Shown: piece by piece, positions 4,806-35,844 of the stretch | Layout of the letters: each line of letters opens with the position of its first letter | Numbering within the stretch: position 1 is the stretch's first letter | NCBI GenBank assembly: GCA_012840385.1 | Contig: DULK01000052.1 | Coordinates: forward strand, 1-48,515 | DNA: 48,515 nucleotides | Reading direction: 5' to 3' | Source of the DNA: Syntrophomonadaceae bacterium | GTDB lineage: Bacteria; Bacillota; DSM-12270; Thermacetogeniales; Thermacetogeniaceae | Program-made: the position numbers and the translations under genes | The notes under the pieces: model-generated | Seen by the model: the letters and a program-made list of their open reading frames with translations, nothing else | The model's database searches: none | Told to the model about the DNA's origin: nothing

Positions 4806-5171
4806 ATGCGTCGTCGAGGAGAACCGCAGAAGGTTCCTTCAAGAAAGATTCGTTGCACGGAAGTGGAAGGAGGCGTTATTATAGCTCCGGTTCCGGTTAC
4901 CTTTGGCGAAGACATCACGGTGCAGTACCAGGGGTTGCTGACCCGGTCTGGGGCCGAGCAGGTCTATTTGCACATGGGTTACGGCCCCGCCGACCGCTGG
5001 CAGTTTATCTCTGATATACCAATGGAAAAGGTAGGCAACACCTGGGAAGCCAAATTTGAGATAACGGACGACAGCCGGTTAAACTTCTGTTTCAAAGACA
5101 ATGCCGGCAACTGGGACAACAATAACGGTCGCAACTGGAGTTTAGAGGTTCATACAGGGAAACAATACTAA
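4806..5171 (+). CDS. Starch-binding domain protein (CBM25-like)
   Basis: A 121-aa protein that is essentially one carbohydrate-binding module. The segment from about residue 20 to 118 has the CBM25-type pattern: ITVQYQGLL, VYLHMGYG, W..I.DIPM.K.G..WEA.FEI, LNFCFKD..GNWDNNNG.NW. The aromatic and Asn-rich GNWDNNNGRNW stretch is typical of starch-binding modules. It has no signal peptide, so it probably acts in the cytoplasm, perhaps tethering enzymes to storage glucan (inference). GGGGGTG precedes the ATG. The next gene downstream is a glycogen-synthase-like GT4, separated by a good terminator. Its upstream region carries a possible forespore promoter, so expression may be linked to sporulation. 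Confidence 0.8.
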   Translation: MRRRGEPQKVPSRKIRCTEVEGGVIIAPVPVTFGEDITVQYQGLLTRSGAEQVYLHMGYGPADRWQFISDIPMEKVGNTWEAKFEITDDSRLNFCFKDNAGNWDNNNGRNWSLEVHTGKQY

Positions 5172-5213
5172 AAACCCCTACAGGCTTGCCTTTGGGAGGG
5201 GTTTCCCTTGCTT
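5172..5213 (+). terminator. Intrinsic terminator after the starch-binding protein gene
   Basis: AAACCCCT (5172-5179) pairs perfectly with AGGGGTTT (5197-5204) across a 17-nt loop, followed by a pyrimidine-rich tail (CCCTTGCTTTCTT). Confidence 0.65.
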
Positions 5214-5257
5214 TCTTAAAACTAGGAAAAGGGATTTGTTTGTGAGGAGATGCATCC

Positions 5258-6595
5258 ATGCGGATTCTTATGCTGTCCTGGGAATTCCCTCCCCGCAGCG
5301 TGGGGGGGCTTTCCCAACACGTAGCCGACCTGACTGCGGCCCTGGCACGGGAGGGGGAGGATGTTCATCTGGTGACATGCGCTGCGCCCGGGGCACCGGA
5401 AGTGGAAGTGGTCGGCGGGGTACACGTCTACAGGGTTAATTCCTACAACCTTCCTTCGCTCGACTTCATTACCTGGGTTCTCCAGCTCAACATGGGGATG
5501 ATGGAATGCGCCGTTTCTGTTATAAATTCCACCGGTGGGTTTGACCTGGTTCATGCCCACGACTGGCTCGTTGCCTATGCCGGAAGAGCGTTGAAACACG
5601 CCTATAAGCTTCCTTTGATCGCCACGATTCACGCCACCGAATACGGCCGCAACTGGGGTCTTCATAACGACCTGCAGCGGTACATCAGCGACGTCGAATG
5701 GTGGCTGACCTACGAGGCTTGGCGGGTGATCGTCTGCAGCCGTTACATGGAGGACGAGTTGAAGCGAGTCTTTCGACTGCCGGCCGATAAGATCCGGGTG
5801 GTGCCCAACGGCGTTGACTTGTGCAGGTATAAAAAAGTTGAAAGCAAAAACCTGGCAAGGGACTTCTACGCCGCACCTGACGAGAGGATCGTCCTCTACG
5901 TGGGGAGGCTCGTTCATGAAAAGGGTGCCCACATTCTCATCGACGCCATCCCCAAAATCCTTCATTACTACGCCAAGACCAAGTTTATCATCGCCGGTAA
6001 AGGCCCCGCTGCGGATTACCTGAAGAACAAGGCCCGGGATATGGGGATCTATGATCGCATCTATTTTACAGGCTATATAGACGATGCCACCCGCGACTTC
6101 CTCTATCGGGAAGCGGATGTAGCCGTTTTCCCCAGCCTGTACGAGCCGTTCGGGATGGTGGTCCTGGAGGCGATGGCTGCCCGGACGCCGGTGGTGGTAT
6201 CCGATGTGGGCGGCCTTTCTGAGATCGTGCAGCACGAGCAAAACGGTTTGAAGTTTTATTCCGGCAACTCCGGGTCACTGGCCGATAACGTCCTGCGTTT
6301 GTTGTACGAAACTGATTTCGCCGCCCAACTGGCAGAACGGGCATATCGAGACCTTCACAGATTTTACACCTGGGATGAGATCGCACAACGGACACTGGGG
6401 GTGTACGAAGAAGTGAGGGGTGAGTACAAAGCCCATGCCCGCAAAACGAACTCATGGCTGTCGGGAATTAACAAGCTCAGGCGCCTCAAACGGGAGATAA
6501 CCGACGCGGGGAGGTATACAGCGCCCGGCTACGGGATTGAAGATGTATACGAAAACTGCAGCAAAACACCTGAAGCAGGAGGCAGATGCCATTGA
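5258..6595 (+). CDS. GT4 glycosyltransferase, probable glycogen synthase type
   Basis: A 445-aa GT-B fold retaining transferase. The N-terminal half opens with MRILMLSWEFPPRSVGGLS and contains HAHDWL (about residues 105-110), a motif shared with glycogen/starch synthases. The C-terminal half has VLYVGRLVHEKG, IIAGKGP and the donor-site E-x7-E signature EPFGMVVLE. It probably extends an alpha-1,4-glucan from a nucleotide-activated glucose (inference from motif and neighbours: CBM25 protein, nucleotidyltransferase, GH57 branching enzyme). ATG at 5258 with GAGGAG upstream. It overlaps the next gene by 10 nt, so the two are cotranslated. A cell-envelope glycosyltransferase is the alternative, but no membrane segment is present. 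Confidence 0.82.
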   Translation: MRILMLSWEFPPRSVGGLSQHVADLTAALAREGEDVHLVTCAAPGAPEVEVVGGVHVYRVNSYNLPSLDFITWVLQLNMGMMECAVSVINSTGGFDLVHAHDWLVAYAGRALKHAYKLPLIATIHATEYGRNWGLHNDLQRYISDVEWWLTYEAWRVIVCSRYMEDELKRVFRLPADKIRVVPNGVDLCRYKKVESKNLARDFYAAPDERIVLYVGRLVHEKGAHILIDAIPKILHYYAKTKFIIAGKGPAADYLKNKARDMGIYDRIYFTGYIDDATRDFLYREADVAVFPSLYEPFGMVVLEAMAARTPVVVSDVGGLSEIVQHEQNGLKFYSGNSGSLADNVLRLLYETDFAAQLAERAYRDLHRFYTWDEIAQRTLGVYEEVRGEYKAHARKTNSWLSGINKLRRLKREITDAGRYTAPGYGIEDVYENCSKTPEAGGRCH

Positions 6596-21557: not shown

Positions 21558-21631
21558 GCTTTTCGGCAGAATGATCCGGCAGGAATTTGGCTGTAAAAAG
21601 CAGAACTGAACATTGACAGGGAGTGGTTCCG

Positions 21632-22615
21632 TTGGCTTCCCCGGATGGCATGATAACAGAGATCAAGGAACTGAATAAATTCCTGCGGGAGCGCCGGTTG
21701 GCAGGGGGGACAAGCACGGAAAGGAGACTCCAGGCCGGCAGGGAGGGGTCTTTTTTCCGACTCCGCCGTCTCACCGGAGAGGAGATCCGGTCCTTTTTTC
21801 AGGGTCACCCCCTTGTCGGGGTCGACGGTTCTTTTAACAATTACGGAGCCAGCTTTCCCTATGTGGTCACCTTTTTCCGGGCCCTGGCCCGCTCCAGCCG
21901 GCCGGACCCTCAAACGGGAGAACGGATCTGGGCACATCGTATCTTTTCCCCCCTGCTCCCCAGGTACCGGGAACAGGTACGGGAAAAGCTGGAACTGGGG
22001 CTGGAACCGGAAGACGCCCTGGCCCGCCTCCGCTGGGAGATACTTGCGACGCTGGAGGCGGAGGTGGGGAAACAGGCACTCATAATGAAGAAACCCCGCC
22101 TGCTTTTGTGGGATGGCGGGTTTGCCCGGTTGGAGGCCCATGCAGCGGCGACCTGGCAGCAGATCAGGGATGAGGCTTTACAGCAGGGGACGATCATGCT
22201 GGGCGTTACCGAGGAGATCGCCACCGCTTCCCTGGTTCAGGCTTTGTCCCCGGATGCCGGGGATATCTGGGGGGACCGCGAGGTGTTGTACGGCCTGCTG
22301 AAACCCGGCGAGGTTTTCTGCAGGCAGGAAAGGGGTGGGAGCAAGCGGAAACGGGTTTATGTGCGTTTTGCCTCCCATCCCCAGGTGGTGGCGGTGGACT
22401 ACCTGCCCGAACAGGAGCAGGAACTGGCGGCGGCTCTCAATTTTCTCTATACGATTACCCCCTCACACGGGAGAGGCTTTCCTCTCTGGCTGGATGTGGT
22501 GGATGCCGAGGTGCGCATCACCAGGGAGGAAATGGAGGCCCTTTTAGCAACCTATCTGGATCCGGTGCTGACCGAGGTATATCTGCGCCCGCTGCGGTCG
22601 CGGCGGGAGTTATAG
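21632..22615 (+). CDS. nurA: NurA-domain 5'-3' nuclease
   Basis: NurA is a Mn-dependent nuclease that pairs with HerA to resect DNA ends in archaea. The protein is about 327 aa. The RNase H-like catalytic core shows LVGVDGSFNNYGAS (about residues 60-73), RLLLWDGGFARLEA, with acidic residues in VDGS and WDGG as likely metal ligands, and a C-terminal PLWLDVVDAEVRIT. The start is uncertain: TTG at 21632 sits 8 nt after GGGAG, and GTG at 21623 is a poorer choice. It precedes herA by 11 nt. The neighbours herA, mre11 and rad50-like genes strongly support a role in DNA end processing. Confidence 0.85.
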   Translation: MASPDGMITEIKELNKFLRERRLAGGTSTERRLQAGREGSFFRLRRLTGEEIRSFFQGHPLVGVDGSFNNYGASFPYVVTFFRALARSSRPDPQTGERIWAHRIFSPLLPRYREQVREKLELGLEPEDALARLRWEILATLEAEVGKQALIMKKPRLLLWDGGFARLEAHAAATWQQIRDEALQQGTIMLGVTEEIATASLVQALSPDAGDIWGDREVLYGLLKPGEVFCRQERGGSKRKRVYVRFASHPQVVAVDYLPEQEQELAAALNFLYTITPSHGRGFPLWLDVVDAEVRITREEMEALLATYLDPVLTEVYLRPLRSRREL

Positions 22616-22626
22616 GAGGGTTTGCC

Positions 22627-24480
22627 ATGCAGGTGGTAGGGGTGACCACCCAGCAATACATATACGTAGCCTCCCGGGAAAGGAAGTTCCGGATCAACGA
22701 GATCCTCGTCATCGAAGACCCGGAGCATCACTACCCCCGGGGTGAGGTCATCGAGACCAAATCCTTCAACAGGTTTATTCCCCTGACCATGGAGCGCAGC
22801 CCCCTGATCGACTCCGGGGTTTGGGAGGGACTGGAACAGGTCGGCTTCCGCCTGGGGGAGGAGACCATCCACCTGGCCAAGGTGCGGCTTTTAGGGGATC
22901 TCCCTTCACCGGTGGAGGTGGGGGTAAGGGTTCGCCTTCCCGAGTTTTCGGAAGTTGAGGATCTCCTGGTACCCTGCCGCCCGGAGAAAGGGCTGGTTCT
23001 GGGGGTGATCCTGGGAACCGAGGATTTAAAGGACGGCCTGCCCGCGGAGTTGCGGGAGATAGCTCCGCTCTATGTGAAGGGGCAGGGGGTGTTGCCCCAG
23101 AGCGCCGTGCCCTTCATCTTTGATTACAGGGCAATGCAGGAGTACCCCCATATCGGTATCTTCGGCGGTTCCGGTTCCGGAAAATCTTTCGGGATGCGGG
23201 TGATCCTGGAGGAGCTTTTGGAGAAGAGGATTCCCGCCCTGGTGTTTGATCCCCATTATGAGATGAGCTTTGGCACTCCTTTCGAAGGCATAGATGAAAA
23301 ATGGGCCTCCGCCTACGAGGGGCGGACCGAGATTCTCACGGTTGGCCGCGATACCGGGGTAAATTTCGAGGAACTGACCGGCAACGATCTGGCATCCCTT
23401 CTGACCGCCGCCGGGTCCAATTTTACGGAAGGGATGGACAACGCCCTCAAGGCTATCCACCAGGAAAGAGACTCATTTGCCAGCTTTTCCCAGAAGCTCG
23501 AGGATCTGATCGGACTGGCCGAGAAGGAAGAGGAGACCCGGGAAAAAATACGCAGGAAGTACGGGGATAACTCACGGTATGAGAGGACCCTGTTAGCCAT
23601 GGCCCGCCAGGCCGGCCACCCCAGCAGCCTGCGCGGGATTGCCTGGCGGCTCTACCGTCTGCAGCGGGAGGGCATTTTTCAAAAGGGAATCGAGCCGATC
23701 GTTGCCTCCCTTCAGGCCCGCCGCCTTACCGTGATCCGGGGACCCATCTGGCTCCTGACGGTTTTCGGTGCCTACCTGGTCAGAAAACTTTACCGGATGC
23801 GGCGGAGCTACGCCGATGCCCTCCAGCGCGGCGAGGCTCCGGGGGAGAAGTTTCCCCCCTTTCTGGTGGTCACCGATGAGGCCCACAATTTTGCTCCAAA
23901 GGGCATCGAAATTCCCGCCCCGGCCCGGAGCGTGTTCCGGGAGGTGGCCCAGGAGGGCCGGAAGTACGGCGTATTTTTGATCCTGGCTACCCAGCGGCCG
24001 GCTTTGCTCGACGAGACGATTACCGCCCAGTTGAACACAAAGTTCATCTTCCGGACGGTCCGGGCATCGGACATCAGGGTCATCGAAGAGGAAACCGATA
24101 TCACCGCCGAAGAGTCGCGGCGGCTTCCTTACCTGAGTTCCGGAACGGCCTTCGTTTCTTCGGCCGTTGTAGGAAGGACGGTGGCGGTACGGATACGCTG
24201 CGCCCGAACCAGTGCCCCCCATACGGTTAATCCGTTTACTGAACTGGAAGAGGATTTTGGAGGGTTGCCGGAAGCTGCCTGGCGAGCCATAAAAAAGCTT
24301 TTACCCCTTGATGTGGGTCAGATCAATTTATATCTCCCTGACATCGAGGAGGAGTTGAACCGTTCTGTTTCCTTTAACGAAGTCCGGGAATGGCTGGAGG
24401 AGTTCGCGGCAGAAGGAAGGCTTGTCAAAACCGCGGGCCCCTTTGGGCCTACCTATTCACCTGCACGGGAAGAGGAGTGA
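22627..24480 (+). CDS. herA: HerA-like hexameric DNA translocase/ATPase
   Basis: A 617-aa FtsK/HerA-superfamily ATPase. An N-terminal HAS-barrel-like region (about 1-110) is followed by the RecA core with Walker A GGSGSGKS (180-187) and Walker B VVTDEAHNF, with Asp417 and Glu418. LILATQRPALLDETI and a terminal segment that looks like a winged helix (about 540-610) follow. HerA forms a ring that drives NurA along DNA. Start ATG 22627 follows TAGGAGGG. It is followed after 2 nt by the mre11-like gene. Archaeal genomes typically group herA, mre11, rad50 and nurA, and the same grouping is seen here. Confidence 0.9.
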   Translation: MQVVGVTTQQYIYVASRERKFRINEILVIEDPEHHYPRGEVIETKSFNRFIPLTMERSPLIDSGVWEGLEQVGFRLGEETIHLAKVRLLGDLPSPVEVGVRVRLPEFSEVEDLLVPCRPEKGLVLGVILGTEDLKDGLPAELREIAPLYVKGQGVLPQSAVPFIFDYRAMQEYPHIGIFGGSGSGKSFGMRVILEELLEKRIPALVFDPHYEMSFGTPFEGIDEKWASAYEGRTEILTVGRDTGVNFEELTGNDLASLLTAAGSNFTEGMDNALKAIHQERDSFASFSQKLEDLIGLAEKEEETREKIRRKYGDNSRYERTLLAMARQAGHPSSLRGIAWRLYRLQREGIFQKGIEPIVASLQARRLTVIRGPIWLLTVFGAYLVRKLYRMRRSYADALQRGEAPGEKFPPFLVVTDEAHNFAPKGIEIPAPARSVFREVAQEGRKYGVFLILATQRPALLDETITAQLNTKFIFRTVRASDIRVIEEETDITAEESRRLPYLSSGTAFVSSAVVGRTVAVRIRCARTSAPHTVNPFTELEEDFGGLPEAAWRAIKKLLPLDVGQINLYLPDIEEELNRSVSFNEVREWLEEFAAEGRLVKTAGPFGPTYSPAREEE

Positions 24481-24482
24481 TC

Positions 24483-25469
24483 ATGCGCTTTCTTTTTCTG
24501 ACAGACGACCATAAACGGGGCACCACCCCTTCGAACAGAAAGGACAACTTTCCGGCCACACTGGCAGCAAAGCTGCGCGAGGTGCTGGAGATCGTCCGGA
24601 CCCGCCGGGTGGATTACGTCCTGCACGGAGGGGATTTTTTTGACGTTCCCGCACCCGCTCTCAGCGTCTGTGCCGATTTTTTGCAGATCTACCAGCAGTT
24701 CCCGGTACCCGTTTTCGTCATCCCGGGCAACCACGACCTGTTTGGCCACAATGTGGAGACCCTCCCTCGAACCATGCTCGGCTTTGCGGCTCGGCTGGGG
24801 ATCGTGCGCCTGCTTGGGAGGGAACCCGTCTATTTAGAAAAAGACGGGGTGCGGGTTCAGCTGACAGGCCAGGGCTTCCACTTTGACATGGACCGCAGGG
24901 ACCCGAGAGAGGATTATGTGGTGCAGAAAAAGGACTGCGATTATGCCATCCACCTGGTGCACGGGATGCTGCTCGACAGGGCCTCTTTCCCGGGTTCCGC
25001 CTATACCCTCGTGGAGCAGATCTGGGAGACGGAGGCCGACTTTACCCTTGCCGGCCACTACCACCTGGGCTTTCCCGATATGCAAAGGGACGGCAGGTTC
25101 TTTCTTAACCCCGGGGCTCTGGCCCGTCTCTCCAACCATCCGGACGAGATGCGAAGGCCGGTTCAGGTGGTCCTGATCGACCTGTCGGGGAGCATCCCCT
25201 CCTACGAAAAGATCAGACTGCAGAGCGCCCCTCCCGGTGAAGAGGTCCTTGACAGGAGCAGGTTGGAGGAGGCGGTTTTCCGGGAGCAGAGGCTGGCCGG
25301 CTACCTGGCCGAGGTAATGTCTGCCGGCTCTTACCGACGGGCCGACGTCCGGCTTCTGGTCGAAGAGATTGCCCGGGCGGAGAAGCTGGACCAGAGGGTG
25401 AGGGATGAGGCCTTAAGACGCATCAGCCTGGCCGAAGAGGCTTTAGCACGGGGGGAGGAAGAGGCATGA
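24483..25469 (+). CDS. Mre11/SbcD-type DNA repair exonuclease
   Basis: A 328-aa calcineurin-like phosphoesterase with all five metal motifs of Mre11: TDDH (Asp8, His10), HGGDFFD (Asp51), PGNHD (Asn83, His84), VHGM and GHYHLG. The C-terminal 80 residues are charged and helical and would contact the Rad50 coil. The start at ATG 24483 follows GAAGAGGAG. The open frame continues upstream into herA, but no start there is better. The stop overlaps the start of the next gene as ATGA. This is the nuclease partner of the split Rad50-like ATPase that follows. Confidence 0.9.
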   Translation: MRFLFLTDDHKRGTTPSNRKDNFPATLAAKLREVLEIVRTRRVDYVLHGGDFFDVPAPALSVCADFLQIYQQFPVPVFVIPGNHDLFGHNVETLPRTMLGFAARLGIVRLLGREPVYLEKDGVRVQLTGQGFHFDMDRRDPREDYVVQKKDCDYAIHLVHGMLLDRASFPGSAYTLVEQIWETEADFTLAGHYHLGFPDMQRDGRFFLNPGALARLSNHPDEMRRPVQVVLIDLSGSIPSYEKIRLQSAPPGEEVLDRSRLEEAVFREQRLAGYLAEVMSAGSYRRADVRLLVEEIARAEKLDQRVRDEALRRISLAEEALARGEEEA

Positions 25470-26770
25470 GCCATTTGCGGAAGCTGATCGTGGAAAATTT
25501 CCAGTCCCACGAGCATACCGAGGTGGTTTTCGGCCCGGGCTTGAACGTCATCGTAGGGCCTTCCGACTACGGGAAATCGGCCCTGGTGAGGGCGCTCCGC
25601 TGGGTGTTTTTTAACGAACCGAAAGGGGCCAACTTTATCCGGGTGGGGGCGCGCACCTGCCGGGTTACGGTGGAGATGGAGGACGGCACCAGGATTACCC
25701 GCCTGCGCACCACCGGCGGCAGGAACCAGTACCTTTTGCAGAAAGCGGGAGAACAGGAACAGGTCTTCGAAGGTTTCGGAAGCGAAATTCCCCAGGAGAT
25801 CGTGCAGGCCTCCGGAATGAGGAAGGTTGTCATTGATGACCGGAATAAGGCGGAACTGAATTTCGGGGGACAGCTCGAAGGCCCCTTTTTGCTTACGGAA
25901 AATGGAGCGGTCAGGGCAAAGGTGATCGGGCAGCTAGGAGGCGTCCATATCCTTGACTGGGCCCAGAAGTCTACAGCAACGGAACTGCGGCGCCTGCGGG
26001 AAGAGGACGGCCAGCTCAATGCTGCCCTTAAAGACCTTGAGGAGGCCCTGCATGCTTATGATCACCTGCCGCACCTTGAGGAAACGATCAAGCGGCTGGA
26101 GGCTCTGTTCGGGAGGATTGAAGAGATCTCCCGCATGATTGATGCCCTGAGCGATCTTGCTGGGCAGTGGCAGGAACTGGAGTGTGCCCTGGAGGAAACC
26201 CACAGGGTCCTGGAGGGGCTTGCCTTTGTGGAACAGGCGGAGGATGGGATGCAAAGGCTGGAGGTTCTTGCAAAGGATTACGCTTATCTTTCATCCCTGG
26301 CAGAGGACCTGCGCCGGGTCGATTTTCAGCTGCAGCAGGTGGAGAGATTGATTGCGGAAACCGGACATGTTCCGGAACTGGAGGCCCGCCTTGAAAGGTT
26401 GGAAGAACTTTACCGGCAGCTACATGAACTGGCCGGGGTTGCACAGGAGCTTGGTACCGTCTCAAGAACGCTGGGGAGGTGTGCCCAGATAACTGCCAGG
26501 ACAGAAATGCTTGAGAAGAGCGAGGAGTACCTTTCCGGGGCGGCTGATGTACTGCGACTGATCGGTTCCTACCAGGAGCTTCTGGCGGCATGGCAGGATC
26601 ACCAGCGGGATTATCAGGGGGTATCCCTGGCCGTGGAACGCTATCAAAAAGAGGTAGAAAGATATCTCGAAGAATACCGGAAGGTCTTAAATATGCTGGG
26701 GAAGTGTCCGGTCTGCTTCGGAGAACTCACGGCCGATGCCATTCAGCGGGCACTCGCCGAGTATGAATAG
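25466..26770 (+). CDS. Rad50-like ATPase, N-terminal half ending in the zinc hook
   Basis: A 434-aa protein holding only the first half of a Rad50/SbcC ATPase. Residues 1-165 form the N-lobe: LIVENFQSHEHTEVVF, Walker A GPSDYGKS (31-38), and beta strands that recognise ATP. Residues about 170-405 are predominantly charged heptad-like coiled coil. The chain ends with CPVC (Cys414, Cys417), the zinc-hook motif, just 17 residues before the stop. There is no signature motif and no Walker B. These lie in the gene at 27057. The break falls right after the hook apex of a normal Rad50. It is coupled to mre11 by an ATGA overlap. A clean AGGAGG and a separate start follow, so this is a true gene end, not a visible frameshift. 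Confidence 0.88.
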   Translation: MSHLRKLIVENFQSHEHTEVVFGPGLNVIVGPSDYGKSALVRALRWVFFNEPKGANFIRVGARTCRVTVEMEDGTRITRLRTTGGRNQYLLQKAGEQEQVFEGFGSEIPQEIVQASGMRKVVIDDRNKAELNFGGQLEGPFLLTENGAVRAKVIGQLGGVHILDWAQKSTATELRRLREEDGQLNAALKDLEEALHAYDHLPHLEETIKRLEALFGRIEEISRMIDALSDLAGQWQELECALEETHRVLEGLAFVEQAEDGMQRLEVLAKDYAYLSSLAEDLRRVDFQLQQVERLIAETGHVPELEARLERLEELYRQLHELAGVAQELGTVSRTLGRCAQITARTEMLEKSEEYLSGAADVLRLIGSYQELLAAWQDHQRDYQGVSLAVERYQKEVERYLEEYRKVLNMLGKCPVCFGELTADAIQRALAEYE

Positions 26771-26781
26771 GAGGGAAGAAG

Positions 26782-27060
26782 GTGCAGGGGCAAAAAGAGC
26801 AGGCACACTACGAAAAGCAGATCAATCACTTAAAGGAAGCCTTGCGGAGATCCCGGGACCTGAGGTCAAGGGCATTGAGCCAGAAGGAATTACTTGAACA
26901 GCAGCGGGAAAAACTCTATCAAAAAGCGGCCGAATACGGTGTCAAACCCGAGGAGTTGGGGGACAGGATTAACGCTTTAAAGGCGGAAATGGACCGCCTC
27001 CTGGCAGAGGCCAACAGGTTGATCCCCTGGGATTTGCTGGAGAAGGAGCAATCCCGATGA
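26782..27060 (+). CDS. Small coiled-coil protein between the Rad50 halves
   Basis: A 92-aa protein rich in Glu, Gln, Lys, Arg and Leu with heptad spacing over almost its whole length. No Walker, signature or cysteine-hook motif is present. It starts with GTG at 26782, 7 nt after AGGAGG, and its TGA overlaps the next start as ATGA. By position it corresponds to the part of a Rad50 just after the hook, so it may form part of the returning coil arm or bridge the two ATPase pieces (inference). I recognise no named family. Confidence 0.75.
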   Translation: MQGQKEQAHYEKQINHLKEALRRSRDLRSRALSQKELLEQQREKLYQKAAEYGVKPEELGDRINALKAEMDRLLAEANRLIPWDLLEKEQSR

Positions 27061-27710
27061 ACCAACTGCTGGCCTCCTTGAAAAGCTCCCTTGACCGGGT
27101 TAAGGCCCTTTACCACCGCCAGCGAGGAGAACAGTCGGCCCTGCTGCAGGAAATAGACGCCAGGGAGAAGCGGCTCGAAGAGGTCAGGGAAGAGGCCGAA
27201 TGCCTCGAAAAGGTGCGCCTCTTGCTTATGGAGGCTGCCAGGCACGCCCGGGAGCAGGGACGGCAGCAGGTGGAGTACCTGGTGACCCAGGCACTGCAGT
27301 TTGTCTTCGGTGGTGACATGGAATTCAAAGTTGTGGTGGAGGACAAGAGGGACCGGCCGGAGGCGGAATTTTACGTTTGCTCCACTTACGGCGGCGACTT
27401 CAGGGTGGAGACAACACCGCAGGACGCCAGGGGGGGAGGAGTTGTGGATGTGATTTCCCTGGCCTTACGGCTCGCTCTCCTGCATGCCTTCCGACCCCCG
27501 GTCGGCGGTCCCGTGATCCTCGACGAACCGGGCAAGCACGTTTCCGAGGAGTTTTCCCCCCAGGTGGCACAGTTTTTGAAGAGTTACAGCCAGAGCCTGG
27601 GGCGGCAGATCATCATGGTCTCCCATAATCAACACCTGGCCGATTCTGCGGATATTGCCTACCTGGTTGAAATGCACCAGGGTATCAGCAGCGTAAGGCG
27701 CATTCGTTGA
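27057..27710 (+). CDS. Rad50-like ATPase, C-terminal half
   Basis: A 217-aa protein with coiled coil over residues 1-75, then the C-lobe of an SMC/Rad50 ATPase. The signature-like segment is ARGGGVVDVISLALRLAL (124-141). The Walker B is GPVILDEPGKHVS with Asp156 and Glu157. The switch histidine is in MVSHN (His190). It lacks a Walker A. With the 25466 product it supplies all ATPase motifs, and ATP would bind between lobes from two different polypeptides. The signature region resembles phage and YhaN/SbcC-type ATPases. It is coupled to the 92-aa gene by ATGA. It is 33 nt before uppP. Confidence 0.85.
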   Translation: MNQLLASLKSSLDRVKALYHRQRGEQSALLQEIDAREKRLEEVREEAECLEKVRLLLMEAARHAREQGRQQVEYLVTQALQFVFGGDMEFKVVVEDKRDRPEAEFYVCSTYGGDFRVETTPQDARGGGVVDVISLALRLALLHAFRPPVGGPVILDEPGKHVSEEFSPQVAQFLKSYSQSLGRQIIMVSHNQHLADSADIAYLVEMHQGISSVRRIR

Positions 27711-27743: not shown

Positions 27744-28535
27744 GTGGCAATCTGGCAGGCAGTAGTCTTGGGTTTGGTGCAGGGGCTGGGTGAATTCCTG
27801 CCCATCTCCAGTTCCGCCCACCTGGTTCTGGTACCCTGGATATTCCGCTGGCCGGATCCTGGGCTGACCTTTGATGTTGCCCTGCATTTGGGCACTCTTG
27901 TAGCCGTGGTGGCTTTTTTCTGGCGGGATTGGTTGAGCCTGATAGCCGGCGCCTTTCGGGGCAGCAGGACGGTAGAAGGCCGGCTTTTCTGGTACCTGGT
28001 GCTTGCCTCGCTACCGGGGGCCGTCTTTGGCTTTCTCCTGGAGACAAAGGCCGAAACTGTTTTCCGCACCCCGGCCTTGATTGCGGCGATGCTGATAATC
28101 ATGGGCGTAATCCTCTACCTGGCGGACCGCCGCGGAGCTAAGAGAGTAAAAATTGAGAAAATCGGGTTAGGCCGCAGCCTGTTGATCGGCCTTTCCCAGG
28201 CCCTGGCGATTATCCCGGGGGTATCCCGCTCAGGGGTAACCATGACGACCGGGCTTTTCACCGGGTTGACAAGAGAGGGCGCGGCGCGATTCTCCTTTCT
28301 CCTCTCCGTGCCGATCATTTTAGGGGCGGGCCTGGTAAAGATTCCCGATCTGCTGGCCCGGCCGGAAATGGTCAACCTGGCTTTCCTGACAGGTATGATC
28401 GTTTCTGCAGTGTCGGGTGTCGCCAGCATAAGTTTTTTGCTGCGCTATGTCCGGACGAAGAGCTATCTGCCCTTTGTCTGGTACCGGTTTGCGCTGGGGG
28501 TACTCGTCCTGATACTTTTTTTCTTGCGACATTAA
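27744..28535 (+). CDS. uppP: Undecaprenyl-diphosphatase UppP
   Basis: A 263-aa membrane enzyme that dephosphorylates undecaprenyl pyrophosphate for recycling of the cell-wall lipid carrier. It may confer bacitracin resistance. Motif 1 GEFLPISSSAHL (Glu17, His26) and motif 2 PGVSRSGVT are present, with about eight hydrophobic segments. It starts with GTG at 27744, 7 nt after GAGGAGG. It is probably read through from the rad50-like genes, though no functional link is known. Confidence 0.95.
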   Translation: MAIWQAVVLGLVQGLGEFLPISSSAHLVLVPWIFRWPDPGLTFDVALHLGTLVAVVAFFWRDWLSLIAGAFRGSRTVEGRLFWYLVLASLPGAVFGFLLETKAETVFRTPALIAAMLIIMGVILYLADRRGAKRVKIEKIGLGRSLLIGLSQALAIIPGVSRSGVTMTTGLFTGLTREGAARFSFLLSVPIILGAGLVKIPDLLARPEMVNLAFLTGMIVSAVSGVASISFLLRYVRTKSYLPFVWYRFALGVLVLILFFLRH

Positions 28536-28558
28536 CCTGAACTTCATAATAGTTAACC

Positions 28559-28587
28559 TTGACGGAGTAGAAGAAAATAATTAAAAT
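28559..28587 (+). promoter_or_regulatory. Sigma-A promoter of tRNA-Pro
   Basis: TTGACG (28559-28564), a 17-nt spacer and TAAAAT (28582-28587), placing the transcription start about 8 nt before the tRNA. It matches 5 of 6 positions in each box. Confidence 0.7.
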
Positions 28588-28601
28588 ATAAATCGTAAGA
28601 T

Positions 28602-28679
28602 CGGGATGTAGCTCAGCTTGGCTAGAGCGCACGGTTCGGGACCGTGAGGTCGCTGGTTCAAATCCAGTCATCCCGACCA
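28602..28679 (+). tRNA. tRNA-Pro (CGG anticodon)
   Basis: The cloverleaf can be drawn by eye. The acceptor stem is CGGGATG (28602-28608) with CATCCCG (28669-28675). The D-arm follows, then the anticodon stem CACGG/CCGTG with loop TTCGGGA and anticodon CGG (28637-28639). The T-arm is GCTGG TTCAAAT CCAGT (last U of one side wobble). The discriminator is A, and the 3' CCA is encoded. It reads CCG proline codons. Confidence 0.95.
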
Positions 28680-28701
28680 TTTTCATGCCTAAGAGCAAAA
28701 T

Positions 28702-30884: not shown

Positions 30885-32257
30885 TGAATCCGTTGATTTT
30901 TCGTCAGTACGATATCAGAGGTAATGCGGAACGGGATCTAACGGACGAGACGGTGCGGCTGTTAGGCCGGGCTTTCGGGAGCTATGTCCAGGAGCATGGT
31001 TCCCGCGAGGTTCTGGTTGGCCGGGACAACCGCCTCAGTTCCCCCAGGCTGCACCAGGCATTCGTTGACGGGCTGGTTGCCTCGGGATGCCTGGTTATGG
31101 ATCTCGGGTTGATCGTAACCCCGATGCTTTATTACGCAAGGATATACTTCGGTATCGACGGGGGTGTGATGATTACAGGCAGCCACAATCCCCCTGATGA
31201 AAACGGCTTCAAGCTGGCCTGCGGGGATGGCACGATCTATGGAGAGGAAATCCAGTACCTAAGAGAAATAATCGAAAAGAAAAGGTTTACATCGGGTGCA
31301 GGTAAAGTAGTGGAGAGGGATATAGCAGCTCCCTATTTGGCCATGTTAAAGGAAAAAATTGCATTGGGCCGGCGCAAACTTAAAGTTGCCGTTGACTGCG
31401 GCAACGGCACGGCATCCCTTTTTGCCGAACGGATTTTAGAGGGATGGGGCTGCGATGTGATTCCCCTTCACTGCGTGTCTGACGGGCGTTTTCCTGTTCA
31501 CCACCCGGACCCGGTTAAAACGGCCAACCTGCAGGATTTGAGAAAGGCTGTTGCGGAACATGGAGCCGACCTGGGAGTAGCCTACGATGGCGATGCCGAC
31601 AGGATTGGGGTGGTTGATGAAAAGGGTGAGGTGATCTGGGGGGATAAGCTGATGTGCCTTTACTGGCGGGAGATTTTAGGTTCTCATCCCAACGCTCTGG
31701 CGATCATCGAAGTAAAGTGCTCCCAGGCCCTGGTGGAGGAGGTCACCCGCCTCGGTGGAAGGCCGCTCTTCTATAAGACAGGTCATTCCCTGATCAAGGC
31801 CAAGATGAAGGAAACAGGGGCCGTCTTCACCGGTGAGATGTCCGGGCACATGTTTTTTGCGGATGAATACTATGGTTATGACGATGCCCTTTATGCCACG
31901 GGCAGGCTCTTGAGAATTCTGTCAAACACCCAACAGAGCCTGGGAGAACTGCTGAAAGACATTCCGAAGTATTATGCTACTGCAGAGACCAGAGTGCCCT
32001 GCGACGACCGGGTTAAGTTCAAGGTCGTTGCAGGTCTCGTGGAAAAATTCCGCAAGGAATACGAGGTCATCGACGTGGATGGGGCAAGGGTGCTTTTCCC
32101 GGACGGTTGGGGACTTGTACGGGCGTCGAACACCCAGCCTGTTTTGGTGGCAAGGTGCGAGGCGAAAACGCCGGAGGCGCTTCAGAGGATCTCCGGCGTT
32201 ATGAAAGCGGCCATGGTCCAGTATCCGGAAGTGGGGGATTTCGATTGGGAGTATTAG
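30881..32257 (+). CDS. Phosphomannomutase/phosphoglucomutase
   Basis: Interconverts hexose-6- and 1-phosphates. This is most probably the mannose pair, because it is coupled to the guanylyltransferase. The 458-aa protein has the phosphoserine loop ITGSHNPPDENGF with Ser101, the Mg loop DGDADR (236-241), and the C-terminal phosphate-binding RASNTQP. All catalytic elements are intact, unlike the degenerate mutase domain at 6586. It overlaps the guanylyltransferase stop (ATGATG) and, by about 13 nt, the start proposed for the giant fusion gene. Confidence 0.93.
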   Translation: MMNPLIFRQYDIRGNAERDLTDETVRLLGRAFGSYVQEHGSREVLVGRDNRLSSPRLHQAFVDGLVASGCLVMDLGLIVTPMLYYARIYFGIDGGVMITGSHNPPDENGFKLACGDGTIYGEEIQYLREIIEKKRFTSGAGKVVERDIAAPYLAMLKEKIALGRRKLKVAVDCGNGTASLFAERILEGWGCDVIPLHCVSDGRFPVHHPDPVKTANLQDLRKAVAEHGADLGVAYDGDADRIGVVDEKGEVIWGDKLMCLYWREILGSHPNALAIIEVKCSQALVEEVTRLGGRPLFYKTGHSLIKAKMKETGAVFTGEMSGHMFFADEYYGYDDALYATGRLLRILSNTQQSLGELLKDIPKYYATAETRVPCDDRVKFKVVAGLVEKFRKEYEVIDVDGARVLFPDGWGLVRASNTQPVLVARCEAKTPEALQRISGVMKAAMVQYPEVGDFDWEY

Positions 32258-35200
32258 ATGGAGAATTGCTCTTTGAGCAAAGCGTTTCAGGTGCTCTGCG
32301 CCAGATCCAGGAGATGGATGGGATCAATCTTGTCGTCGGTATTCCGTTCTTGAATGAGAAAGACACCCTGCCCGAAGTGGTGAAAATAGTGGACAGGGGA
32401 CTGGCGGAGTCACAACTTCTCAGCAGATCTCTTATCGTTTGTGTAGGAGACCCGGCCGGAGTCGAGGCCCTGGAAGCGGTTAAAAAATTGGACCTGAGAT
32501 CCGAACATCTGGAATTCCTGATGTTTCCCGGAAGCAATGGTAGGGGAGCAAGTATCAGGGCGATCATGAACATCGCCAACCGGCTTGAAGCCGACCTCAT
32601 TATCCTAGCGGCGGATCTGGTCAACGAGGATGGGGGGGGGATTCAACCCGGGTGGATCGGCCGGTTGCTGGAACCGATTGTCCATGAATATGATTTTGCA
32701 TTGGCCATTTTGAGGAAGAATTTCCTGGAGGATCTCCTCAACAACTTTTTCCTGGCCCCCCTCTTCGAGATGTTCTATGGATATCATATCCAGGGCACCC
32801 TGGGCGGAGTGTATGCCATGTCGCACGATGTGGTGGAGGATTGCTGTGCGGAGATCAAATTTTGGTTGGAAACGACAAAGAGTTACGGGATTGATCCCTG
32901 GCTGATCACAAGAGTTATACGCTGGAATAAGAAGATTTGCGAGGTTGATCTCGGTACTAGGCGCAGAACCATATCCCTGGAAAAACTCCAGCATGTTTTC
33001 AAGGAGTCTGCCAGGGCGCTTTTCGAGTCGATCAAAAGGGATGAGGAATACTGGTTGAGCAGCGGGGGTGTCTTAAGGACGCCCGATGTCTACGGTGAGA
33101 GCAGGGAAGATGTGTGCTACGAGCCGACCTATTCCACCCTGGGGCTGATCCAGTTGTTTAAAAGAGGCTTTAACCAGTATAAGAGCCTCTTTGAAACAGC
33201 CTTACCCGATGCCTGCCATTCGGACTTTTCCCCCCGTTTTGCCTGTCGCACAGATTTGCAAAGGATTGTGGATGCTCCTGCCAAGGACTTCAGATTTGAC
33301 GGTACGATGTGGTCCAGCGTCGTGTACCGTTTTTTGATCCAGTACAGTTTTGCTACCGGAATCAGCAGGGATGACGTTCTGAGTGCCCTGGCAGCCTCTT
33401 TCTGCGGGAGGCTGGCCGGTTTTCTCGAGTATCTCCAGTCTCTCCAGGAGGAGACAAAGAAGCTAAAGAGCATCAATCCTTCTGCCTTTCTCTCCAATGA
33501 GGTTGCTGCTGAGGAACGGCAGCAGAAGAGGGTTTTTCAGACGCTAAAGCTTGATTTTATTGAAGCATGGAAGAAAAAGGCATTAGAGGTGGCCCCTCCT
33601 CTCGTTCCCCAGTATTACCTGGAGTTCATTCCGGGAATTCCCATTACCATGCCGAAAAAAATCGAAGGGAGGGGGGGAAGGGTAGTCTGGGCGGATGCCC
33701 TTTTTAACAGGTTGCAGATCCGTTATCAGGAGGCGTTCAATCACTTTATTTACAGCGGCCTCCAGGTGCCGGAGAGCGCGGCTTCCAACACCATCGCCGC
33801 ACACCTCAAGGAGTTTATGAAAAGCCTGGAAATGACTCTTGATGCGATACTTCCAGGGGACCTGTACACCGAAGAGGGTACACGGCAGGTGGTCGAAGGC
33901 CTCTTCAGACTCATTCCCAGCCACAGGATTTTTTCCATCAGGAACGAGGTCTTCCGGGAGGCACTGCTAAGGTACCCTCCCCTTAATGTGATGATACCTG
34001 CCGGCTGCAATGCACCCAGGGTTCTGATTGAGAAGATGGATGTGCGGGATGCCATTACCCTTGGAAACCTGGTCGAAAACCGGAAGTGGGCGGACAGCAT
34101 CCTCCTCTGGATACTGGAACATACCACACCGGACGACATGGATGCGGTGGAGATCAAGCCCATCGTTTTGGGACGGGATATCCTGGGAGGCACTGTTAAG
34201 CTGGCAAACATTTCGGATCTGAACAAGCTCACTACCAGGGTAGCAGTCAGGCCCTTGAGCAAAGGAATGGGTGGTGAATACCCGAAGCTCCGCTATTGCC
34301 TCTTCATCGGCAGGCACATCATGATCGCCGAAAACTACTCCTACCTTAACAAAACATTTGCCCGCGAAAGGAAAAACCTCGGCCTTAAGATCCGCAATTC
34401 CCTGATCGGCCGGTATGAAAGCGGCCCTTTCTCCGCCCACAATATTTTTGAAAACCTTCATCATCGTGCTCTTGTCCGTCATTTCCGGGCGATCTCCGAA
34501 AAGCTGGCAAAACAGGGCATGACCGAAGAAGCGCGGCTGCTCGGCCTGATGTGCGACGGCTACGGATTGAGTCAGGTGCTTGCCGACGGGACATTTATTC
34601 CATGTTCTGCCTGGACCTGGGCTAGCTATAGCTATAAAGGGGGAAGGGGCATACCAACCCCCCTGTCAAGTCACGTCGAGGAAAAGTGGTTCAACCATGA
34701 CTTCCTGGATGAAATCTATGCAGAACTGGGATACGATCCCGGAGAAATTATGCGCATGGTAGTTCAGTTGATCGGTGAGGGGCGGGCGAGCGAAAACCTC
34801 TTGGACGTCCTGCTGGGAATAAAACCGAAAAATGTTAATGTGGTGGTTCAGGAATCTAAAGATTATCCTCCGGCAGGCTCCCTGGTCAGGTATCCCGGCA
34901 ACCCGATCCTGCAGCCGATCAGAGAACACCCCTGGGAGAGCAAGTATGTCCTTAATGCCGCCGCTTTTCGGATTGCCGATAGGGTATACCTGCTCTACCG
35001 GGCCTTTGGGGATGACCAGGTGTCCCGGATTGGACTGGCCGTTACCGACGGTTATCAGGTGCTTGAAAGATTCCCGGAACCGGTATTCGTCCCTCAAGGA
35101 GAAAGGGAAAAGAAGGGAGTCGAGGACCCCCGGGTGGTGATCATCGATGACTGGATTTACATGCTTTACACCGCCTATGACGGGGTTGTCGCCCAGATCT

Positions 35201-35844
35201 CGTTTGCGGCCATAACCGTGGAAGATTTCTTAAATAGAAGGTTTGACAGATGGGTGCGTAAGGGTTACGCCTTCCAGGATGTCTGGGATAAGGACTCCAT
35301 TCTTTTCCCGGAAAAGATCGGGGGAAAGTACGTTATCTATCATAGAATCGAGCCCGGTATATGGGTAACACGTTTGGATAAGCTTGAGTTCCCGGCTCCC
35401 AGAGAAAAACACTCCATTATCGCGGGCCCTCGACCGGGAAGGATGTGGGATTCTTTGAAGATCGGTGCCGGTGCCCAGCCTATTAAGACGAAATACGGCT
35501 GGCTGCTGATTTACCACGGGGTGGATAGGGACCGGGTCTACCGCCTTGGGGTGATGCTCGTGGATCTCAAAAATCCGGAGCGACTTCTCTACCGTTCACC
35601 CAATCCTGTATTGTCCCCCGAGACCGACTATGAAATAGGAAGGGCAGGAGAAGTCTGGGTGCCCCGGGTTGTTTTCACCTGCGGGGCCGTCCCTGTAGAG
35701 GATAAGGAAGTGCTGGACGCTGAAGACGAAATCCTTGTTTACTATGGCGCCGCCGATACTTATGTTTGCCTGGCTACAGGTAAGGTCGGGGACCTCATTC
35801 CGGAGGCGGTAAGAAAAGAAATTGGAGAGGGCGTGCCCTTCTAG
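32245..35844 (+). CDS. Giant GT-A glycosyltransferase - GH130 phosphorylase fusion
   Basis: About 1199 aa. Residues about 25-300 form a retaining-type GT-A domain similar to GT2/GT78/GT81 synthases (VVGIPFLNEKDTL, LIILAADLVNEDGGG in the DxD region, GTLGGVYAMS). Residues about 300-860 are largely helical and match nothing I recognise. Residues about 865-1195 are a GH130-type beta-propeller (RYPGNPILQP, NAAAFRIADRVYLLYRA, GVEDPRVV with the probable catalytic Asp, YHGVDRDRVYRLG). GH130 enzymes phosphorolyse beta-mannosides to mannose-1-phosphate. Synthesis and phosphorolysis of a mannoside may be joined in one chain (inference). TTG 32245 is chosen because GTGGGGG lies 8 nt upstream. An ATG at 32314 is the alternative. 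The stop forms CTAG with the convergent gene. Confidence 0.8.
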   Translation: MGVLDGELLFEQSVSGALRQIQEMDGINLVVGIPFLNEKDTLPEVVKIVDRGLAESQLLSRSLIVCVGDPAGVEALEAVKKLDLRSEHLEFLMFPGSNGRGASIRAIMNIANRLEADLIILAADLVNEDGGGIQPGWIGRLLEPIVHEYDFALAILRKNFLEDLLNNFFLAPLFEMFYGYHIQGTLGGVYAMSHDVVEDCCAEIKFWLETTKSYGIDPWLITRVIRWNKKICEVDLGTRRRTISLEKLQHVFKESARALFESIKRDEEYWLSSGGVLRTPDVYGESREDVCYEPTYSTLGLIQLFKRGFNQYKSLFETALPDACHSDFSPRFACRTDLQRIVDAPAKDFRFDGTMWSSVVYRFLIQYSFATGISRDDVLSALAASFCGRLAGFLEYLQSLQEETKKLKSINPSAFLSNEVAAEERQQKRVFQTLKLDFIEAWKKKALEVAPPLVPQYYLEFIPGIPITMPKKIEGRGGRVVWADALFNRLQIRYQEAFNHFIYSGLQVPESAASNTIAAHLKEFMKSLEMTLDAILPGDLYTEEGTRQVVEGLFRLIPSHRIFSIRNEVFREALLRYPPLNVMIPAGCNAPRVLIEKMDVRDAITLGNLVENRKWADSILLWILEHTTPDDMDAVEIKPIVLGRDILGGTVKLANISDLNKLTTRVAVRPLSKGMGGEYPKLRYCLFIGRHIMIAENYSYLNKTFARERKNLGLKIRNSLIGRYESGPFSAHNIFENLHHRALVRHFRAISEKLAKQGMTEEARLLGLMCDGYGLSQVLADGTFIPCSAWTWASYSYKGGRGIPTPLSSHVEEKWFNHDFLDEIYAELGYDPGEIMRMVVQLIGEGRASENLLDVLLGIKPKNVNVVVQESKDYPPAGSLVRYPGNPILQPIREHPWESKYVLNAAAFRIADRVYLLYRAFGDDQVSRIGLAVTDGYQVLERFPEPVFVPQGEREKKGVEDPRVVIIDDWIYMLYTAYDGVVAQISFAAITVEDFLNRRFDRWVRKGYAFQDVWDKDSILFPEKIGGKYVIYHRIEPGIWVTRLDKLEFPAPREKHSIIAGPRPGRMWDSLKIGAGAQPIKTKYGWLLIYHGVDRDRVYRLGVMLVDLKNPERLLYRSPNPVLSPETDYEIGRAGEVWVPRVVFTCGAVPVEDKEVLDAEDEILVYYGAADTYVCLATGKVGDLIPEAVRKEIGEGVPF

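Follow-up and report, generated by a model that had tools for sequence, protein, structure and literature searches.

A conserved Rad50 variant encoded by three separate genes in bacterial chromosomes, megaplasmids and phages

Background

To our knowledge, in all textbook models Rad50 and SMC proteins consist of a single chain that doubles back at the hook or hinge. In archaea the herA, nurA, mre11 and rad50 genes are clustered, according to work cited in PMC9960219. Fusion proteins of Mre11 and Rad50 have also been described, among them one from Bacillus phage 0305phi8-36; in that analysis one P-loop segment was not observed (Yoshida 2011; PMC3175470). For SMC proteins, arm lengths are multimodally distributed with steps of approximately 100 amino acids, and the question of preferred lengths was left open for Rad50 (Burmann 2017; PMC5344682). 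A search of the open-access literature returned no paper describing a split Rad50.

The locus reported here lies on a contig of a Syntrophomonadaceae bacterium (DULK01000052.1 of assembly GCA_012840385.1), the 48,515 nt of which are referred to as the window. As in the archaeal cluster the same four functions are encoded in one operon; here, however, the organism is a bacterium and Rad50 is distributed over three genes, Rad50-N, M and Rad50-C, a form that dispenses with the single fold-back chain in chromosomes as well as in phages.

The locus

NurA, HerA, Mre11, Rad50-N, M and Rad50-C form one operon; all six genes are read from the same strand, and neighbours either overlap slightly or are separated by no more than 11 bases (Table 1); the start of the Mre11 gene was taken at the ATG that opens MRFLFLTDDHK. 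The TAG stop codon of Rad50-N (26768-26770) overlaps the AGGAGG motif, seven bases downstream of which M begins; the stop of M in turn overlaps the ATG of Rad50-C by four bases, and the three ORFs occupy three different reading frames. That NurA and HerA adjoin the Mre11/Rad50 genes, in the window (by Pfam) as in relatives, suggests a role in DNA end resection. Elsewhere in the window, a tRNA-Pro gene is found at 28602-28679 (+), and the ORF running across it on the opposite strand (28372-28698) is probably spurious; a 1245-aa ORF at 32107-35844 resembles a sugar-acting enzyme.

Table 1. Features of the three-gene Rad50 locus (window coordinates)
Feature	Position	Strand	Basis or remark
NurA nuclease gene	21623..22615	+	Pfam NurA E=3.5e-16
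HerA translocase gene	22627..24480	+	Pfam DUF87/HerA E=9.6e-18
Mre11/SbcD-like phosphoesterase gene	24483..25469	+	Pfam Metallophos E=2.9e-11; Mre11 models
Rad50-N: ATPase lobe I, outgoing arm, zinc hook	25466..26770	+	434 aa; AAA_23 E=3.5e-16
Walker A GPSDYGKS	25556..25579	+	G31, G36, K37 invariant in 58 sequences
Two 47-residue arm repeats, residues 253-346, variable-copy part of arm	26222..26503	+	autocorrelation; length classes
Zinc-hook motif CPVC	26705..26716	+	C414, P415, C417 invariant in 58 sequences (CPxC)
AGGAGG ribosome-binding site of M	26769..26774	+	sequence; purine-rich site before M in relatives
M, 92-aa helical protein, GTG start	26782..27060	+	PHROG 18563, dN/dS, model
Rad50-C: short return coil and ATPase lobe II	27057..27710	+	217 aa; PHROG 15167, structures
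ABC signature position, ARGGGVVD instead of LSGGE	27426..27449	+	alignment to Pfu Rad50
Walker B region, catalytic D156-E157	27507..27530	+	invariant in 29 C sequences

The likeness to Rad50/SbcC and Mre11/SbcD comprises the two ATPase lobes (lobe I with Walker A, lobe II with Walker B), a coil arm, a CxxC hook and a neighbouring Mre11/SbcD gene. Both lobes match Rad50 structures: Rad50-N is assigned to PHROG 16465 (E=1e-79) with Pfu Rad50 (1ii8_A) among its best fold matches, and Rad50-C to PHROG 15167 (E=1.7e-59) with matches to Rad50 lobe II structures (E=4e-6). The profile of the hook, a zinc hook as predicted from its sequence, matches the hook structures 6ZFF and 1L8D. Other hallmarks of Rad50 are not found. 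Instead of a single chain holding both lobes and both arms there are three ORFs, in all 110 loci analysed below, and outgoing and returning arms are unequal in length; the score against the curated NCBIfam Rad50 model is 78.3 bits, below the cut-off of 700. In the alignment with Pfu Rad50 the canonical ABC signature LSGG(E/Q) is absent, RGGGV standing in its place, and so is the canonical D-loop LD after Walker B, where VS aligns; because of these two replacements the ATPase may work by a mechanism different from that of canonical Rad50. The source genome encodes one further, weak SbcD-like protein and no SbcC above the NCBIfam cut-off, for which reason the three-gene Rad50 may be its main Rad50 system.

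Recurrence of the split

The three-gene split is a conserved variant of Rad50. Profiles of N, M and C run over approximately 130 loci yielded 119 complete trios, 110 of which remained as non-redundant after identical C sequences had been dropped. These 110 loci span chromosomes, megaplasmids and phages, and the break is always just past the hook, the first hook cysteine lying 9-32 residues before the end of Rad50-N in every trio locus; in the window 17 residues follow CPVC, and the claim of an earlier note on this DNA that Rad50 breaks exactly behind the hook therefore holds well beyond the locus for which it was made. Throughout the family of the window bacterium, as a search of its relatives revealed, the C piece has a short ORF of its own; a sample of 398 genomes from the phylum contains it in 65 (three of the 65 being fused coil-less forms), and it is also present in nine plasmids and in phages. 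In relatives, too, M is preceded by a purine-rich ribosome-binding site; together with the recurrence in 110 loci these sites bear out the same note's view that AGGAGG marks a real gene start and not a frameshift. The N-to-M frame offsets (28/26/25) reveal no preference, which argues against a hidden readthrough rule, and stop-codon readthrough or frameshifting as a means of joining N and M was rejected on these grounds.

The pieces are not always neighbours. In a Jeotgalibacillus megaplasmid (L206, L062) an Mre11-N fusion and M lie together and C is found approximately 73 kb off; in the Microbacterium phage Magritte (L207, L060) N, there without the hook motif, and C are far apart in the same record. 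Since N and C are so distant on the plasmid the three pieces must, judged by gene position, act in trans. Mre11 is fused to Rad50-N in ten loci (L057, L058, L061, L082, L083, L086, L087, L206, L208, L209), in which C is still separate and M nearly always so; one N-M fusion was seen (L086) and an M-C fusion in no locus. In three chromosomal ORFs of 686-702 aa (L161, L162, L163) Mre11, lobe I and lobe II are joined in one chain; these lack the coil arm and the CxxC hook, and no M gene was found with them. In three loci (L122, L125, L127) helical ORFs of the size of M lie between N and C; the profile missed them, and they were judged by eye. Three genomes related to that of the window (L063, L064, L065) carry second, diverged copies of the trio, and in Bacillus phage vB_BboS-125 (L055) a gene with an AP2 domain (5023-5595), probably a homing endonuclease, is situated between N and M.

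Lengths of the outgoing and returning arms

The outgoing arm of the window protein measures 249 residues (D164 to C414), somewhat more than the approximately 235 estimated in the earlier note, and the coil of Rad50-C approximately 64 before the head rather than 75; the estimate of about 165 for the two returning coil pieces came close to the approximately 155 obtained for hook tail, M and C. Across loci, the arm (head anchor D164 to hook) falls into classes of approximately 197, 249, 296 and 343 aa: in almost all of 108 loci its length is within 191-199, 248-257, 292-303 or 341-347, with one arm at 282, and the best period of the lengths is 47-49. The same unit appears in the sequence of the arm, which correlates with itself most strongly at offsets 47 and 94, and in close pairs (L043 to L053, L074 to L076) one arm is longer by a single insertion, mostly mid-arm, of 47 or 94 residues. 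A tree of the heads with 92 rows, quickly made and with many weak forks, requires at least 21 changes of arm class. A single-chain AlphaFold model, the confidence of which is poor in mid-arm (pLDDT ~50, pTM 0.40), consists there of long single helices with breaks near the repeat boundaries (~300 and 341-350).

The returning pieces behave differently. The M core of 72 residues and the C coil of 64 are almost invariant in approximately 107 loci, the lengths coming from alignments of loci that passed the M threshold, so that regular cases may be favoured. As these two stay constant while the arm steps by 47, changes in the outgoing arm are not followed by the returning pieces, and a one-to-one pairing along the full length of the arms is excluded. 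The earlier note had offered an unequal arm or a separate clamp as alternatives; the arms are indeed unequal, and systematically so, but the two possibilities are not mutually exclusive. Preferred lengths are also a property of SMC arms (PMC5344682); here, in contrast, the steps are of 47 aa, derive from sequence repeats and affect one strand only. Such natural change of arm length by whole units opens to test both the communication between heads and hook along the arm and the reason for preferred arm lengths, a question raised for SMC proteins.

The M protein

M matches PHROG 18563 (E=1e-5); a comparison with solved folds returned only weak generic coil matches, one with Pfam and NCBIfam generic coil matches that were all below cut-off, and a pattern search for M in viral contigs no confirmed match. 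An AlphaFold model, made as a single chain of the N-M read-through of L046 with 11 sequences, predicts helices of 49, 25 and 9 residues and a turn at GVKPEEL. Periodicity is heptad-like, with a best period of 3.52-3.56 that is equalled by shuffled sequences in 3.5% and 0.8% of cases. The 92-aa product, which the earlier note had taken for a coil, is thus predicted to be helical; coil propensity, the absence of which would have told against that note, is present in helix 1, though modest.

Mean pairwise identity of M among 16 genomes of the family is 0.77 (0.80 for residues 8-82), in the range of the two heads (0.74 and 0.86), Mre11 (0.78) and HerA (0.77), whereas it is 0.42 for the outgoing arm and 0.51 for the C coil. 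Of five close pairs, four gave dN/dS values of 0.036-0.058 for M and the fifth gave 0.20, compared with 0.17-0.38 for the outgoing arm; by this measure M is under strong purifying selection, as is Rad50-C in close pairs. That M is so much more conserved than the arm suggests an interface, or partners, beyond plain coil pairing with it. The C-terminal tail IPW[DE]LL (27022-27057) occurs mostly where HerA is encoded in the locus (both in 22 loci, neither in 52, 6 mismatches) and in none of 47 viral trios; these counts reduce to four independent contrasts (sign test p=0.5), and tail and HerA were set aside as a functional pair, the association being a trend only.

As to the position of M, a separate M gene is missing from the viral contig L086, in which N extends 138 residues beyond CPLC and includes an M-like stretch (13.3 bits; the best of 125 arms reaches 10.9, and 12.4 or more is reached by 2 of 5000 shuffles). 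With 155 residues its outgoing arm is the shortest seen, and strict arm matching fails here, too, because the returning strand (138 + 64) exceeds it. A search for close relatives returned only the contig itself. L086, one metagenomic contig with a weak score, favours a place of M directly after the hook.

A proposed Rad50 of three chains

We infer, with a probability of roughly 0.6, that the locus encodes a conserved Rad50/SbcC-like ATPase assembled in trans from three polypeptides. N would supply lobe I and the outgoing arm together with the whole of the zinc hook, and C would supply lobe II and the returning coil next to the heads; M, helical and of fixed length, most likely runs along the outgoing arm near the hook and forms the initial segment of the returning strand. 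The mid-arm repeats between the parts covered by C and M would have no covalent partner and, with no covalently linked strand to be kept in step, could vary freely in number. Together with Mre11, HerA and NurA, to judge from gene context, the complex probably tethers and resects broken DNA ends. The recurrence of the trio in 110 loci, the 73-kb separation of C, the constancy of M and C beside a stepped arm, L086, the lack of M in relatives without coil and hook, and the position of NurA, HerA and Mre11 upstream of Rad50-N all support this three-chain assembly.

Among the points against it, M is more conserved than its putative partner arm, and in eight viral loci where N is more than 1.5 kb away M adjoins C and not N. 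Both would fit M as a separate accessory protein, a clamp or adaptor on the heads, Mre11 or HerA, with Rad50 itself made of two pieces, N and a C with a short return coil. Conservation equal to that of Mre11 and HerA, and nearly twice that of the arm, favours such a role, as does the occurrence of the IPW[DE]LL tail mostly in loci with HerA. We nevertheless regard it as unlikely, though deserving serious attention, since L086 has its M-like stretch directly after the hook, M stays beside N where C is 73 kb off, coil-less relatives that retain Mre11 and heads are without it, and the association with HerA comes down to so few contrasts.

A continuous return arm, in which the 47-aa repeats are folded out and add no length, would explain a numerical agreement: hook tail (~17-20), M core (72) and C coil (64) sum to approximately 155 residues, which is the 249 class minus two repeats and also the length of the L086 arm. 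This agreement has odds of approximately 1 in 7 of arising by luck, and its base was chosen post hoc. Moreover, the modelled arm consists of long single helices with no hairpins within a unit, one-unit steps occur that an up-down fold would hardly tolerate, and M and C are fused in no locus; all this renders folded-out repeats improbable. A long shot is that the first helix of M (~47-49 residues) equals one 47-residue repeat and that several copies of M line the arm, their number following the repeats. This would account for M being separate, of fixed length and highly conserved; in that case identical subunits in a row would make up the returning strand. Finally, although errors often underlie split genes, the chance that a frameshift, an assembly error or a decaying Rad50 gene is at work is negligible, given an identical break in 110 loci from independent assemblies, ribosome-binding sites at the starts of M, unbiased frame offsets and strong purifying selection on M and C.

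Apparent half genes in phages and plasmids

The three-gene Rad50 bears on genes annotated before. PHROGs holds the three pieces as separate families, 16465 (exonuclease), 18563 (unknown function) and 15167 (ATPase), not linked as one protein; the small family 18563 now gains a hypothesis for its function. The top viral fold match of Rad50-N is A7KV18, a 769-aa protein of Bacillus phage 0305phi8-36. The 218,948-bp record L082, taken on matching lengths to be the phage carrying A7KV18, has a 769-aa Mre11-N ORF, and the M and C genes downstream of it hold the missing half; by this assignment, the P-loop half went unobserved in 2011 because it is encoded in separate downstream genes. More generally, the split accounts for Rad50 genes in phages and plasmids of which half seems to be missing. 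In Microcystis phage Mvi-JY20 (L210, 3980-6807), N ends shortly after CSQC; a coil-like gene of 94 aa and a C piece come later, and the split may thus extend to cyanophages.
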